From: BD2-11 clade cluster bacterium bin43
GTDB taxonomy: Bacteria > Gemmatimonadota > Gemmatimonadetes > Longimicrobiales > Gaopeijiaceae
Direction: 5' to 3'
Length of the DNA: 64,000 nucleotides
Assembly: GCA_002238605.1 (NCBI GenBank)
Contig: MPMR01000009.1
Span: forward strand, 62,001-126,000
Position 1 is the first letter of the stretch. The number at the start of each line of letters is the position of its first letter. A program made the translations under genes and the position numbers. The notes under the pieces are model-generated. The model saw only the letters and a program-made list of their open reading frames with translations, was not told where the DNA came from and did no database searches. Positions 48,332-54,995 of the stretch are shown piece by piece.

Positions 48332-48551
48332 GGCGTTCGCCCATCTTCCGAGCCTGTGGTGGCCGGCTGACGGGCCGGGCACGCTGACAGGCCACGACGG
48401 TCCTCCGAGAGCACATCCGTTCGACCGGCGCGGCCCCGACCGCCAGCACAATCGTGGTCCGGGGTGTCGATTAATGGCCCTATCGATCACCTCCGAGGTG
48501 TTCGAGTCCCCGCCGGAGGTGTCTGTCCCACCTCTGTCCGGAGGACTGCTC

Positions 48552-51530
48552 ATGGGCTCTCGTATCGTTGTATTCCAACCCCCAGGCGCGGCTGTCGCGC
48601 TCCTTGCCCTCCTGTTCGCCCCCGCCGCCGGGGTCGCCGCGCAGGGAACCGGCACGGTCACCGGAACGGTGGTCGACGGCCGCACCCTGCAACGGATGTC
48701 CGTCGTCCAGGTGGACATCCCGACGCTGGAGATCGGGGGGCTGACCCAGGCCAACGGTCAGTTCCTGCTCCTCAACGTTCCGGCCGGCACGCACCAGTTG
48801 CGGGCGACGCGGATCGGGTTCCGCACCGCCACCGTGCAGATCGAGGTGACCGGCGGCCAGACGACCCAGATCGAGGTCAACCTCACGGCCGAAGCCCTCG
48901 CTCTCGACGAGGTGGTGGTCACGGGCACCGCGGGCGGCACCCGGCAGCGCGCGCTCGGCAACGCCATGGCCCGCGTGGAGGCCGCCGACGTGGCGGAAGT
49001 CGCGCCGATCAACACCATGCAGGACCTGCTGCAGGGACGCGAGGCGGGCGTTGGTTTCAAGCGCGTGTCGGGCAACGTCGGCACCGGATCGCCCATCCGC
49101 ATCCGCGGATATACCAGCCTGAACGTCGGCAACAACCCGCTCATCTACGTGGACGGCATCCGGGTCGACAACGAGACCCAGGCCGGGCCGAGCCTGCGCG
49201 ACGGCCGCCAGGTGAGCAAGCTCGACGACATCAACCCCGAGGACATCGAGCGCATCGAGGTCATCAAGGGCCCGTCGGCCGCGACCCTGTACGGCACCGA
49301 GGCCTCCAACGGCGTCATCAACATCATCACCAAGCGCGGCGTCGAAGGCGCGCCCCAGTTCGACCTGACCATCAAGCAGGGCGCCACCTGGCTGCCCAAC
49401 GCGCGGGATCAGGTCAACACGGCCTACGGCAAGGACGCCTCGGGCAACATCATCTCCTTCAACATCTGGGATCAGGAAAGGGACGCCGGCCGCCAGTTCT
49501 TCACCACGGGCCACTCCCAGGGTTATGCGCTCAGCATGAGGGGCGGCACGGAACGGGTGCGCTACTATCTGGCGACCGACTGGGACGACCAGACCGGCAT
49601 CGTCCACTACAACTGGAACAAGGTCTTCAACACGCGCGCGAACGTCTCCGTGGTGCCGCACGAGTCGCTCCAGATCGACATGAGCACGGGCTACGTGAAC
49701 GGCACCACCAGCTTCATGCAGCAGAGGACCTCGTGGGGCGTCTGGGAGCAGGCGCAGTGGTCGACCCCGGAGGGGGTGGACACCCGCCTGAGGGGCTTCC
49801 TGCGCGCCCGCCCGGAGTCCATCGAGGAGGTCGAAGCGACGCGCGACAACTCGCGCTTCATCGGCAGCCTCACCCTCAACCACACCCCCTTCGACTGGCT
49901 GACCCACCGGGCCGTGATCGGGCTGGACCAGGCCCACGAGGAGAACCGCAGGCTCTTCCCGCGCCACCCGACCGGAGCGCAGCACGACTTCGGCGGCCTG
50001 TCCCTGGGCGACGTGGTCGTCGAGCGGCCGTACACCCGCTACATCACCTTCGACTATGCTGCGACCGGAACGGTCAACGTAAGCGACTTCGCTCTGAAGA
50101 CTTCGGTGGGGGCACAGTACTATGCCAAGCAGCTGGAGACCGTGATCAGCACCGGCAAGACCTTTCCGGCCCCTGCAATCACCTCGCTTGCCGGCGCGGC
50201 CAGCACGACCGCGACCGAGGATTTTGTCCAGAACAAGACCATGGGCGCCTACGTTCAGCAGGAGATCGGCTACCAGGACCGCATCTTCGTCACCGGCGCC
50301 ATCCGGGGCGACGACAACTCCGCCTTCGGCGCCGACTTCGACGCCGCCATCTATCCGAAGCTCTCCGGCACCTGGGTACTCAGTGAAGAGGAGTTTTTCG
50401 ATGTCGACTGGGTGACCTCGCTCAGGCTGCGGAGCGCATGGGGCAAGGCAGGCCAGCAGCCCGACGTGTTCGCCGCGGTGCGGCTCTATGAGCCGGCGGT
50501 CGGCCCGGCCTCCCAGGCCGCGGTCACCCCGGACGAAGTGGGCAACCCGGAACTGGGCCCCGAAGTCAGCACGGAGATCGAGGCCGGATTCGACGCCGGT
50601 CTGTTCGACGATCGTCTGCTGGCGCAGATCACCTACTACCAGCAGGACATCCGGGATGCGCTGGTGTCCCTGCCCGTGGCGCCCAGCCGCGGCTTCCCCG
50701 GCTCCCAGTCCGTGAACCTGGGGCACCTGAAGAACTGGGGCTGGGAGGTCAACCTCAACGGGCGCATCCTCGACGGCGACGCCTTCGCCGTGGACCTGGG
50801 CGCGAACCTGTCGCACAACCAGAACCGCGTGGAGGACGTCGGCGACCTGCCACCGACCAACACGCTGCGTGAAGGCTTCCCCTTCCCGGCCATCTTCGAC
50901 GAGCTGGCGGTGGGCGCCCAGATCGACCCCGCCACTGGACGGCTCATCAAGTCGTCGATCATGTGCGACAGCGGCACCGGCACCAACGGCTGGGAGCAGG
51001 GAGGGCCGCCGGCGCCGTGCAACAGCCGCATGGAAGTCTTCTACGGACCTCTGCAGATGCCGTGGGAGATGGGCTACAACATGACCTTCACCTTCTTCAA
51101 CAACCTCAGGCTCTATGCCCTGGTCGAGCACCGGATCGGGGGCTACGCGACATCGACGGACGTCTCCTGCAAACACACCTGTTTCCAGACCTCGCTCGCG
51201 GCCAATGAGCGGACCAATCCGCTCTTCCTGGCGCACGCCGACGAGAACTTCGGGACCGGGGCCATTTACAACGGAGGCTTTGCCCGGCTGCGCGAGATCA
51301 GCGCCAACTACCGGCTGCCCCAGTCGCTGGTGGAACGCTCGGGAGCCACGCGGGCGTCGCTGAGCGTGGGAGCGCGCAACCTGGCGGTGCTCTGGGTGGC
51401 CCAACCGGACATCTGGGGTGAGCCGATCCACGATCCGGAGGCCCGACGCAGCGCGGACACCAACACCGGCTCCAACTCGAACGTGCCGCCCACCGCGTCG
51501 TTCAACCTGACCATGCGGGTCACGTTCTGA
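48552..51530 (+). CDS. SusC/RagA family TonB-dependent outer-membrane receptor (pair 2)
   Basis: Outer-membrane importer, 992 aa. The ATG at 48552 has GGAGG eight bases upstream and gives a signal peptide ending AAGVAAQGT; the frame is open 26 codons further. A carboxypeptidase-regulatory-like domain (GTVTGTVVDGRTLQRMSVVQ) comes first, then LDEVVVTGTAGGTRQRALGN, then the plug with IERIEVIKGPSAATLYGTEA and SNGVINIITKRG. The barrel ends with Phe (LTMRVTF). It is closely related to the receptor at 54996 through these segments. The SusD-like gene starts 20 bp after its stop. The substrate is not known. Confidence 0.95.
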   Translation: MGSRIVVFQPPGAAVALLALLFAPAAGVAAQGTGTVTGTVVDGRTLQRMSVVQVDIPTLEIGGLTQANGQFLLLNVPAGTHQLRATRIGFRTATVQIEVTGGQTTQIEVNLTAEALALDEVVVTGTAGGTRQRALGNAMARVEAADVAEVAPINTMQDLLQGREAGVGFKRVSGNVGTGSPIRIRGYTSLNVGNNPLIYVDGIRVDNETQAGPSLRDGRQVSKLDDINPEDIERIEVIKGPSAATLYGTEASNGVINIITKRGVEGAPQFDLTIKQGATWLPNARDQVNTAYGKDASGNIISFNIWDQERDAGRQFFTTGHSQGYALSMRGGTERVRYYLATDWDDQTGIVHYNWNKVFNTRANVSVVPHESLQIDMSTGYVNGTTSFMQQRTSWGVWEQAQWSTPEGVDTRLRGFLRARPESIEEVEATRDNSRFIGSLTLNHTPFDWLTHRAVIGLDQAHEENRRLFPRHPTGAQHDFGGLSLGDVVVERPYTRYITFDYAATGTVNVSDFALKTSVGAQYYAKQLETVISTGKTFPAPAITSLAGAASTTATEDFVQNKTMGAYVQQEIGYQDRIFVTGAIRGDDNSAFGADFDAAIYPKLSGTWVLSEEEFFDVDWVTSLRLRSAWGKAGQQPDVFAAVRLYEPAVGPASQAAVTPDEVGNPELGPEVSTEIEAGFDAGLFDDRLLAQITYYQQDIRDALVSLPVAPSRGFPGSQSVNLGHLKNWGWEVNLNGRILDGDAFAVDLGANLSHNQNRVEDVGDLPPTNTLREGFPFPAIFDELAVGAQIDPATGRLIKSSIMCDSGTGTNGWEQGGPPAPCNSRMEVFYGPLQMPWEMGYNMTFTFFNNLRLYALVEHRIGGYATSTDVSCKHTCFQTSLAANERTNPLFLAHADENFGTGAIYNGGFARLREISANYRLPQSLVERSGATRASLSVGARNLAVLWVAQPDIWGEPIHDPEARRSADTNTGSNSNVPPTASFNLTMRVTF

Positions 51531-51550
51531 TGGGCAAGGGAGAAAGAGCC

Positions 51551-52888
51551 ATGAAGACAATCAGGAATAGAAAGCGTGTCGCCCGCGGGCGGTTCATGAA
51601 GATTTCAGTGCTGGTTCTGGCGGCAACGGCGGCCGGGGCCTGCGACAGCCTCCTGCAGGTGGAGCTTCCCGGAAACCTCACCGAGGACGGGCTCCTCATC
51701 CCGGACATGGCCAATACCATGGTCGTGTCGGCGATCGCCGACTTCGAATGCTCCTACTCGGACTTTTCCGTGTCCATCGGAGGCCTTGAGGACGCCTACT
51801 GGGAGTCCACCGGCTGGTTCACCCGGGCCTGGTCCGAATACCGTATCACTTCCACCAGCGGCAACTGCGGCCAAAGCAACACCAACGCCGGCTTCGCCAC
51901 CTCCTTCCAGAAGGCCCGCTTCCAGGCGGAGCAGGCCTACAGTTCCATCAGCGGATTCGAGGAATCCGTGGCGGACCAGGAGCGGCTGCTTGCGACTGCG
52001 GCGCTCTACGCCGGGCTCGTCTACACCGTGTTCGGCGAGCACTGGTGCGAGAACACCGTGGACGTGGGGCCGCTCATGACGCCGTCCCAGCTGCTGGCCG
52101 GCGGCGAAGAGTGGCTCGGTACTGCGATCGGCCACATCAGCGGCGACTTCGACATCACCGCGGTGACCTCGAGCGCACGCCAGCTGGCGTACCTGGCCAG
52201 GGCCCGCAACCGGCTTTCGCAGGGGAATCTCGCGGGCGCGGCGGCGGATGCGGCCCAGGTTACCGACCCGAACTTCATCGCCTGGGTCACGCGCGACAAC
52301 TCGGTGCGCAAGCGGTGGAAACAGGTCTACCACATGCTGAACGAGAACAAGTACGGCACCATCACTCCTCCGGTGATGGTGGACGGAGTCGAGGTGGCGC
52401 CCGGATTCCGCAACCTGACCATTGCCGCCGACGGGACTCAGACGGTGGATGACGGCATGCCCGATCCCCGGGTCCCGGTGGAGAACACCGGTCAGGTGGG
52501 CCAGGACGGTGTTACCCCCCACTGGGTCCAGACCAAGTACCGCGACCAGGGGTACGACATTCCGCTCGCCGACTGGGCCGAGGCGCAGTTGATCCTGGCG
52601 GAGGCCGAGTTCCAGGGCGGAGACGCGGCGTCGGCCCTGGGCCGGATCAATGCTTTGCGCGACCGGCACGGCCTGCCCCATGCTTCAACCGTGGACATGG
52701 ATGTCATCGTCGAGGAGCGGCGCCGCGAGATGTTCCTCGAGGGACGCCACCATGCCGACAAGCTGCGCTACGGGCTGTGGTTCCCGCGTGGCCAGAACTT
52801 CAACCACAAGGGAGTGGCCTACGGGCCGACCACGTGCCTGCCGATCGACGAAACCGAGCTCGAGCTGAACCCCAACACGAGCGGATGA
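51551..52888 (+). CDS. SusD/RagB-like lipoprotein (pair 2)
   Basis: Nutrient-binding surface lipoprotein, 445 aa. The ATG at 51551 follows AAGGGAGAAAG with good spacing; an in-frame ATG at 51530 overlaps the SusC stop. The signal ends LAATAAGACDS. The body has the repeated helices of the family (ATAALYAGLVYTVFGEHWCE; RQLAYLARARNRLSQGNLAG) and the diagnostic C-terminal segment VIVEERRREMFLEGRHHADK followed by LRYGLWFPRG. Its stop overlaps the plug-only lipoprotein gene by 4 bp (ATGA), so the three genes form one operon. Confidence 0.93.
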   Translation: MKTIRNRKRVARGRFMKISVLVLAATAAGACDSLLQVELPGNLTEDGLLIPDMANTMVVSAIADFECSYSDFSVSIGGLEDAYWESTGWFTRAWSEYRITSTSGNCGQSNTNAGFATSFQKARFQAEQAYSSISGFEESVADQERLLATAALYAGLVYTVFGEHWCENTVDVGPLMTPSQLLAGGEEWLGTAIGHISGDFDITAVTSSARQLAYLARARNRLSQGNLAGAAADAAQVTDPNFIAWVTRDNSVRKRWKQVYHMLNENKYGTITPPVMVDGVEVAPGFRNLTIAADGTQTVDDGMPDPRVPVENTGQVGQDGVTPHWVQTKYRDQGYDIPLADWAEAQLILAEAEFQGGDAASALGRINALRDRHGLPHASTVDMDVIVEERRREMFLEGRHHADKLRYGLWFPRGQNFNHKGVAYGPTTCLPIDETELELNPNTSG

Positions 52889-53373
52889 CGCCGGCGTTCA
52901 GCGCCGGGCGCCCGTCCGGGGAGGTCCCGAAAGGGATCTCTCCGGGCGGGGGCGGGAGAGGTGTGCCCCGGTGGGCGTTGACCGTGGCGCTTGCAGGCCT
53001 CTTCTGCCTCGGTGCGTGTGGGAGAGGTTCGGGTACCGCGGGAGACGGTCCCGCCCCGGTCCGCGGCACCGGCGACATCACCAGGGAGGAACTCGACCAG
53101 GAGGTCTACACCAGCGCGCACCACGCCATCGAGCGGCTTCGGCGCAGCTGGTTGCGGCGCCGTGGTGCCCGCACCCCGAACAATCCCGATAACCGGCCTT
53201 CGGTCTATGTGGACGGTGTGCGGGTCGGGGCAATCGAGGAGCTGTTCGGCATCAGCGCCGAATACGTCGAGAGGATCTCTCTCCTCTCGCCCACCGACGC
53301 CACCACCCGGTTCGGCACCGGTCACGCATCGGGGGCGATCGTAATCACCACCCGCAGAGGTCCTCCGGACTAG
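52885..53373 (+). CDS. Plug-only (TonB plug-like) lipoprotein, copy A
   Basis: Small lipoprotein, 162 aa, ATG overlapping the SusD stop. The lipobox is LFCLGACGRG after a long basic N-terminus. The mature part has a helix DITREELDQEVYTSAHHAIE followed by RLRRSWLRRR, then SVYVDGVRVGAIEELFGISA, YVERISLLSPTDATTRFGTG and GAIVITTRRG. These last segments match the end of the TonB-receptor plug domain (VYVDG, IERIEVIKG, ATLYGTEASNGVIQIITR), without any barrel. A paralogue is encoded convergently at 53345-53833. Its function is unknown; it may be a periplasmic binder or decoy for a TonB-linked system. The family is not one I can name. Confidence 0.75.
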   Translation: MTPAFSAGRPSGEVPKGISPGGGGRGVPRWALTVALAGLFCLGACGRGSGTAGDGPAPVRGTGDITREELDQEVYTSAHHAIERLRRSWLRRRGARTPNNPDNRPSVYVDGVRVGAIEELFGISAEYVERISLLSPTDATTRFGTGHASGAIVITTRRGPPD

Positions 53374-53833
53374 CCCCCGGCCGCCGGCTGACCACCACGA
53401 TCGCACCCCACATGTGGCCGGTGCCGTACACCGTGGTCGCGTCCCGGGCGGAAAGGAACCGGATGAGTTCGACGTCCTGCACGGGAATGGTGCGCAGATC
53501 GTCCAGCGACAGGAGCTTCGCCTGGTCGATGTACACGGCCGGCTCCGGATTCGCGTTCACCAGGGTGGGCGTGCGCCGGTAGAAGAGCCAGGAGGGCCGG
53601 AGCTGCTCGACGGCTTCGTAGGCGCTCTCGGAGAGGACCTGATCCAGTTCGGGGCGCTGGATGTCGCCCTGCGAGCGTCCACCGCGGGACGGTCCCACGT
53701 TGCCGACGACGCACGCGGAAGTGAGCGCCACCAGGATCAATGGAACGTGGCGCCACCAGTACCGGATTCTCTTCACGTTGCCTGCGGCCATGGCCCGCGC
53801 GACGAGTCCCGCTCCTGCCTGTAGGGGTCGCAC
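53345..53833 (-). CDS. Plug-only (TonB plug-like) lipoprotein, copy B
   Basis: Paralogue of copy A, 162 aa. I use the GTG at 53833 because GGAGGAGG lies about nine bases upstream and the cyclophilin stop is only 2 bp away; an ATG at 53791 lacks such a site. The lipobox is LVALTSACVVG. Shared segments with copy A are DIQRPELDQVLSESAYEAVE and QLRPSWLFYRR, then AVYIDQAKLLSLDDLRTIPV, VELIRFLSARDATTVYGTGH and GAIVVVSRR. Its 3' end overlaps that of copy A by 29 bp in convergent orientation. It would be the distal gene of the cyclophilin operon. Confidence 0.75.
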   Translation of the reverse strand: MRPLQAGAGLVARAMAAGNVKRIRYWWRHVPLILVALTSACVVGNVGPSRGGRSQGDIQRPELDQVLSESAYEAVEQLRPSWLFYRRTPTLVNANPEPAVYIDQAKLLSLDDLRTIPVQDVELIRFLSARDATTVYGTGHMWGAIVVVSRRPGASPEDLCGW

Positions 53834-53835
53834 TG

Positions 53836-54642
53836 CTAGTGTCCTCCTCCGGGCTCGACCGTGGCTTTCGTCAGGCGGTCGAGCATCGGAAACTCGCGGT
53901 CGAGATAGTCGTTGCCACCCGCCACGATCGCGCTCTGGTCACCGCGCCGCAGCCCGCCCCCGGAGTTCTCGCCGTACCCCGTGTAGATGCGGTCCACAAT
54001 CTCCATCCCCTCCACCACCCGGCCGAAGGGCGGGAAGCCCTGTGCGTCCAGGCGGCTGTTGTCCACCAGGTTGATGTACACCTGTGTGGTGCGGGTGTGC
54101 GGCTCGGTGAAGGCGAAGGCGATGGTTCCGCGCACGTTGCTGGCCACCACCGCTTCGTCGTCAGAGATCGTCTCGCCGATCCAGGCGGCCGTGACCTCGG
54201 GGTCGCCGGCCAGCCCCCACTGGACGATGAAGTCCGGCACGGTGCGGTGGAAGCGCGCGTCGTCGTAGTAGCCGTGGCGGACCAGGTTGTAGAAGCGATC
54301 CGCCCCGATGGGCGCCCAGGCCCGCACCACCTCGATGGCGAAGTCGCCCGCGCTGGTCTCGAAGCGGGCGCGGAAGGTGTCGGGGGCGGTTTCGCTCCAC
54401 ACCGGCAGCGTCGGGTCGAGGAGGATCTCGCGGGGGGAGGCGTTGCCCGCGGCACGGGGTTCATCGCCGGTGGCGAGTGCTTCTCCGGGACCAGCAGGGA
54501 TGTCGGCCGGAACGCTGGTGGGCTCGTCCGGGTCCTGTTCGCCCCCAGGCGTGTCCCCCGGCGCGCAGGCCACGGCCAGAAGCCCCGCCAGCGCTGCCGC
54601 GCCCCGGACTCGGCCGAGTCTGCGTCCAGCTGCTGCAGCCAC
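53836..54642 (-). CDS. Cyclophilin-type peptidyl-prolyl isomerase lipoprotein
   Basis: Periplasmic proline isomerase, 268 aa. The GTG at 54642 follows GGGAGG with six-base spacing and gives a compact lipoprotein signal ending AGLLAVACAPG; an ATG at 54717 would add 25 basic residues. The cyclophilin domain has FETSAGDFAIEVVRAWAPIG, FYNLVRHGYYDDARFHRTVP followed by DFIVQWGLAGDP, VRGTIAFAFTEPHTRTTQVY and FPPFGRVVEGMEIVDRIYTG, all typical. It helps fold periplasmic or outer-membrane proteins. It is divergent from SusC pair 3, and the plug-only copy B gene follows directly. Confidence 0.93.
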   Translation of the reverse strand: MAAAAGRRLGRVRGAAALAGLLAVACAPGDTPGGEQDPDEPTSVPADIPAGPGEALATGDEPRAAGNASPREILLDPTLPVWSETAPDTFRARFETSAGDFAIEVVRAWAPIGADRFYNLVRHGYYDDARFHRTVPDFIVQWGLAGDPEVTAAWIGETISDDEAVVASNVRGTIAFAFTEPHTRTTQVYINLVDNSRLDAQGFPPFGRVVEGMEIVDRIYTGYGENSGGGLRRGDQSAIVAGGNDYLDREFPMLDRLTKATVEPGGGH

Positions 54643-54995
54643 CGGCCACCTCCCGGGTCGGCGTGAATGGGCAGGCGGCAGCCACCCACGACCGCCTTTC
54701 TCATTCTGACCACGCATGACGGGCGTGTCCAATCGGGGCAGGCCGCACTCGTCGCAGTGTCCGGCCCGGCCGGAGGGCTGGCCGCGGCCGCCTGAGCGAC
54801 CGGATACGGGACGACGATCCGCCCGGCTGCAGGGGGCCTGCTGGCCGCCGGCTGACCCGGATCGTAGAATCATGGTGGAGGCACGCAGGTTTTCTCATGT
54901 ACCCCCGCCCGGCAGCTGTTCCCCGCGATCCGTCCCACCGACGGGTCCACCTCCCGGCGGTTCATCCAGCAGCACCCGCCTCCAGAGGAGTACCC
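54643..54995. other. Divergent promoter region between cyclophilin and SusC pair 3
   Basis: A 353-bp gap with no convincing gene. It should hold promoters for both directions. I could not pick a clear -35/-10 pair. The SusC start is set by AGAGGAG at 54985-54991. Confidence 0.4.

Follow-up and report, generated by a model that had tools for sequence, protein, structure and literature searches.

The TonB-receptor plug is usually regarded as inseparable from its barrel. In the window, the whole 64,000-nucleotide stretch of DNA analysed here, two small lipoprotein genes at a SusC/SusD locus each encode a plug with no barrel. What are these proteins, and what could a plug do by itself? Our results indicate that both belong to a family, here called mini-plugs, found across the Gemmatimonadota, in which a shortened plug seems to hold its fold alone. 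The window comes from a metagenome-assembled genome of 4.47 Mb that is 97% complete.

Organization of the locus

The + strand carries SusC1 (48474..51530), which has its own complete plug and barrel, then SusD1 (51530..52888) and PLUG1. The − strand carries PLUG2 and a cyclophilin-type peptidyl-prolyl isomerase (53836..54873) that is itself lipoprotein-like (LLAVAC), and SusC2 and SusD2 follow on the + strand. This gene order agrees with an earlier sequence-only reading, which had placed PLUG1 as the third gene after SusC1-SusD1 and PLUG2 after the cyclophilin gene. The two plug-only paralogous lipoproteins that it had recognized here are also confirmed. Identity between the two proteins is 39% across 148 residues (E 1e-27), and each N-terminus has a hydrophobic signal ending in a lipobox-like Cys. 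Both reading frames stop after the plug and neither matches a barrel. The shared helix xELDQxxxxSAxxAxExLRxSWL and the end motif are present in both, as it had described.

The longest PLUG1 frame (52885-53373, + strand) opens at ATG 52885, which overlaps the stop of SusD1. All six relatives read have CTG instead, which makes GTG 52963 the likelier start. The GTG lies 78 bases 3' of the ATG, directly after GGGAGAGGT, and is ATG in at least one relative. The probable gene (52963..53373, + strand) would thus encode 136 aa. The predicted lipobox Cys codon (LGAC, Cys45) is at 53017..53019, and the plug-fold domain spans 53074..53358, residues 64-158 of the long frame. For PLUG2, the longest frame (53345-53833, − strand) opens at GTG 53833, while ATG 53791 is the probable start of a 148-aa protein (53345..53791, − strand). 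Its predicted lipobox Cys codon (TSAC, Cys41) is at 53711..53713 and its plug-fold domain spans 53381..53665, residues 57-151 of the long frame.

The 3' ends of PLUG1 and PLUG2 share 29 bp (53345-53373). The convergent overlap is real in the window but it is not conserved: relatives with both genes keep genes for a HhH lipoprotein and a PepSY_TM protein, about 2.1 kb, between them, and the overlap is therefore incidental. In the window's genome this block of about 2 kb is found on another contig (G000:C16, L162) with 86% DNA identity, and the junction left by its absence lies at 53373..53376. The junction reflects a rearrangement in this genome or, possibly, a misassembly. Among the genomes read, the window's alone has the overlap, and for this reason we rejected the idea that the convergent genes form a functional unit.

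A predicted complete but shortened plug fold

Pfam Plug PF07715 covers part of PLUG1 at 22.4 bits, under its curated cut-off of 23.9, and gives no match in a scan of PLUG2. It matches 28 of 71 mini-plug family members at E up to 0.01, and the mini-plugs have no dedicated Pfam family. Ordinary annotation would miss them, because most members fall under the Pfam threshold. The relationship to plugs is much clearer in profile comparison: by hhalign, an alignment of 71 relatives matches 25 SusC plugs with a probability of 98.2% and E 4e-14. Compared with SusC, the mini-plugs are missing about 14 residues preceding the IRG-like segment and about 13 following VDG, two regions that we take to bear ligand-facing loops in receptors.

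The AlphaFold models have mean pLDDT values of 77.6 (PLUG1) and 76.9 (PLUG2). In Foldseek searches of the PDB, the meaningful matches are all TonB-dependent receptors, both for PLUG1 (among the best 50 of 116) and for PLUG2 (42 matches). The E-values are modest, with best values of 2.5e-3 for PLUG1 and 3e-2 for PLUG2, and query TM-scores reach 0.58. The mini-plug is thus strongly predicted to be a whole but shortened plug fold. The earlier description of a TonB plug-like end was right about the plug, which the match of the models to receptor plugs bears out, but too narrow in extent, as the domain comprises the entire shortened fold.

The mini-plug family

We searched 121 genomes drawn across the Gemmatimonadota at a match threshold of E at most 1e-9. 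Mini-plugs are present in 79 of them, with 1–9 copies each, and 42 give no match, despite many plug-like candidates in those genomes. The window's own genome holds at least six, and PLUG1 and PLUG2 are not sisters in the mini-plug tree; the two are therefore not the special pair they had been taken for. Family members share the signature LRPxWLxxRG ... VYxDG ... DATTRxGTGHxxGAI. A signal-peptide Cys is found in 97 of 97 distinct members (80 by a strict pattern and 17 by eye; all 97 by a looser pattern), at a median of 17 residues upstream of the domain. A protein that begins with a CarboxypepD_reg domain and finishes with two mini-plugs in tandem, with Pro-rich linkers, is encoded in two genomes (L154:1005-2999 and L155:1136-3001, − strand). 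The mini-plug domain is therefore a self-sufficient module. One further mini-plug (L062:7257-7568) lies on a contig titled Ignavibacteriales, reflecting either spread beyond the phylum or a mis-binned contig.

Gene linkage

PLUG1 accompanies SusC1-SusD1 in all five informative congeners that have the pair and is absent from all four that lack it (the contig of a sixth carrier ends just after SusD1, so it is uninformative). PLUG1 is thus gained and lost together with the SusC1-SusD1 cassette. PLUG2 behaves differently: it follows the cyclophilin gene in 9/9 relatives, whether the SusC1 cassette is present or not.

Across the family, linkage is only partial. Sixteen of 69 non-redundant mini-plugs lie within 4 kb of a SusC gene, against about 11% expected (p 0.0035, for members that are not independent). 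In 5/69, the mini-plug lies no more than 350 bp behind a SusD gene of the same strand, against about 0.4 expected. Three arrangements occur (after SusD, before SusC and tail-to-tail with SusD), and they are spread over different mini-plug lineages. SusC/SusD adjacency is therefore a feature of a minority of mini-plugs, but it is above chance and found in several lineages. The idea of a family near SusC genes holds as to the family; the proximity applies to that minority. The neighbours of most other mini-plugs are unrelated, and when 31 neighbours in the same orientation were scanned with Pfam, no family recurred. A constant operon partner was accordingly rejected.

Membrane anchor and proposed orientation

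Acidic residues at positions +2 to +6 after the Cys are found in 6 of 97 mini-plugs versus 27 of 27 SusDs. In Bacteroidota, acidic residues after the lipoprotein Cys direct export to the surface (PMC5080379). By this rule, which is that of Bacteroidota and may not hold in this phylum, mini-plugs would face the periplasm, since the residues are mostly missing. The acidic residues of SusD may also be kept for reasons other than surface export.

Possible functions

We propose that mini-plugs are lipid-anchored periplasmic docking modules at outer-membrane barrels, with PLUG1 acting on SusC1-SusD1, and give this reading a probability of about 0.4. A TonB-receptor plug would have been turned into an independent outer-membrane lipoprotein unit, keeping its sheet-and-helix core and losing the barrel, the TonB box and the two ligand-facing loop regions. 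The lipid anchor, about 17 residues upstream of the domain, would tie it to the membrane. The domain would then face the periplasm and dock on outer-membrane assemblies instead of forming part of a TonB-driven transporter. The SusC1-SusD1 complex is the likely partner of PLUG1, because the PLUG1 gene follows theirs and is gained and lost with them. PLUG2 might be a client of the adjoining cyclophilin, which is a guess. Regulation of receptors, one of the roles earlier suggested for detached plugs, is possible, as is docking on them. Against the docking reading, most mini-plugs are located away from SusC/SusD and no constant partner was found; the 42 genomes with no match and the modest Foldseek E-values also count against it.

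The same distribution makes it a serious possibility that the plug fold has been taken over for general binding in the periplasm, with peptidoglycan, a small ligand or another lipoprotein as its target, and that proximity to SusC/SusD reflects descent or chance. Varied neighbours, with only 16 of 69 members close to SusC, would be expected in that case, and so would tandem mini-plugs in non-receptor proteins and the 42 genomes that have no mini-plug match in spite of their plug-like candidates. A role unrelated to barrels does not readily explain why SusC/SusD linkage, in three arrangements and several lineages, exceeds chance, nor why PLUG1 comes and goes with its cassette.

A more specific proposal, which we consider unlikely, is that mini-plugs work in trans, docking reversibly inside or beneath a barrel of the outer membrane (SusC or SprA) and gating or closing it from the periplasm, like the separate Plug of SprA in the type 9 secretion system. 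The window's genome encodes a SprA homologue (G000:C37:132768-136529; 477.9 bits, cut-off 200), and 26 of 29 genomes from the family also yield a SprA match. In F. johnsoniae, Plug and a peptidyl-prolyl isomerase came along when SprA was isolated (PMC7463736), and an isomerase gene adjoins PLUG2 in 9/9 congeners, which is weak evidence. Nearly all receptor barrels, however, already have a plug of their own. In genome G136, mini-plugs occur but SprA has no match, which weakens a SprA-specific role, and the SprA-Plug complex (6H3J) is absent among the 42 PDB matches of the PLUG2 model. For these two reasons the SprA parallel stays an analogy. If gating in trans did occur, it would add a previously undescribed level of control over nutrient import or secretion. 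A split receptor, in which a mini-plug is supplied to a plug-less barrel, was rejected: the barrels found in the window's genome all have their own plug, except for one 322-aa frame.

Two further roles are less probable still. As periplasmic ligand carriers, mini-plugs would take substrate from a receptor. Plug apices do touch substrate in receptors, and the plug of FepA on its own shows weak binding of ferric enterobactin (PMC11658791). The loop regions bearing those apices are missing from mini-plugs, so that substrate binding, including the periplasmic ligand binding suggested earlier, is very improbable. Slightly weaker still is the proposal that they are TonB decoys or regulators competing with receptors for TonB. 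A TonB box normally precedes plug domains, but a search of the linkers of 97 mini-plugs found a TonB-box-like motif in 0/97, which argues against competition and against the shielding of TonB that had been suggested.

Selection on both genes is informative about decay. Within the genus, the median dN/dS of the mature region is 0.14 for PLUG1 and 0.06 for PLUG2, values that point to purifying and not relaxed selection in both genes. The window's own PLUG2 shows higher dN/dS against its relatives (0.23–0.31), and its final residues GASPEDLCGW are found in the window's genome alone. PLUG1 and PLUG2 are short and consist of a plug alone, as fragments of decayed receptors would, but with low dN/dS, their own signal peptides, a common non-receptor signature and a family spread over 79 of 121 genomes it is scarcely credible that they are receptor remains.

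Comparison with known systems

Stand-alone plug lipoproteins have no description that we found in the open-access literature, and one may exist elsewhere; mini-plugs apparently constitute an undescribed separate use of a known domain. In isolation, the plug of FepA showed the behaviour of an unfolded protein (Usher et al. 2001, as cited in a review, PMC11658791). Mini-plugs could give structural studies a soluble plug that occurs naturally, and they prompt one to ask whether plug-like partners act in trans on outer-membrane barrels.

A parallel, by analogy, is the type 9 secretion Plug (SprA-Plug-PPI, 6H3J), which is made as its own polypeptide and is reported to seal a barrel on the periplasmic side, with the isomerase in the complex (PMC7463736). 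That structure is not among the 42 PDB matches of the PLUG2 model, and mini-plugs also occur in the absence of a SprA match. The genome has further barrel-less plugs (L009, L013, L019, L005 and L008), comprising CarboxypepD_reg plus plug proteins, some with a hydrophobic C-terminal part, and larger lipo-plugs. These resemble mini-plugs in having a plug and no barrel; they have a normal-sized plug or extra domains, whereas mini-plugs are shortened and have their own signature.

Sus loci have third-gene lipoproteins of the SusE/SusF-like kind. PLUG1 is similar as a lipoprotein gene in third position after SusC-SusD, but it differs in its predicted plug fold and in lacking acidic residues of the surface type downstream of the Cys. 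A further close relative is the TonB receptor plug PF07715 of the SusC/RagA subfamily, with which mini-plugs share the predicted fold, the IRG-like and VDG segments and the A-T-x-YG...G-I end motif. Unlike this plug, mini-plugs have no barrel, TonB box or two loop regions; they carry instead their own lipid anchor and the specific signature LRPxWLxxRG plus DATTRxGTGH.
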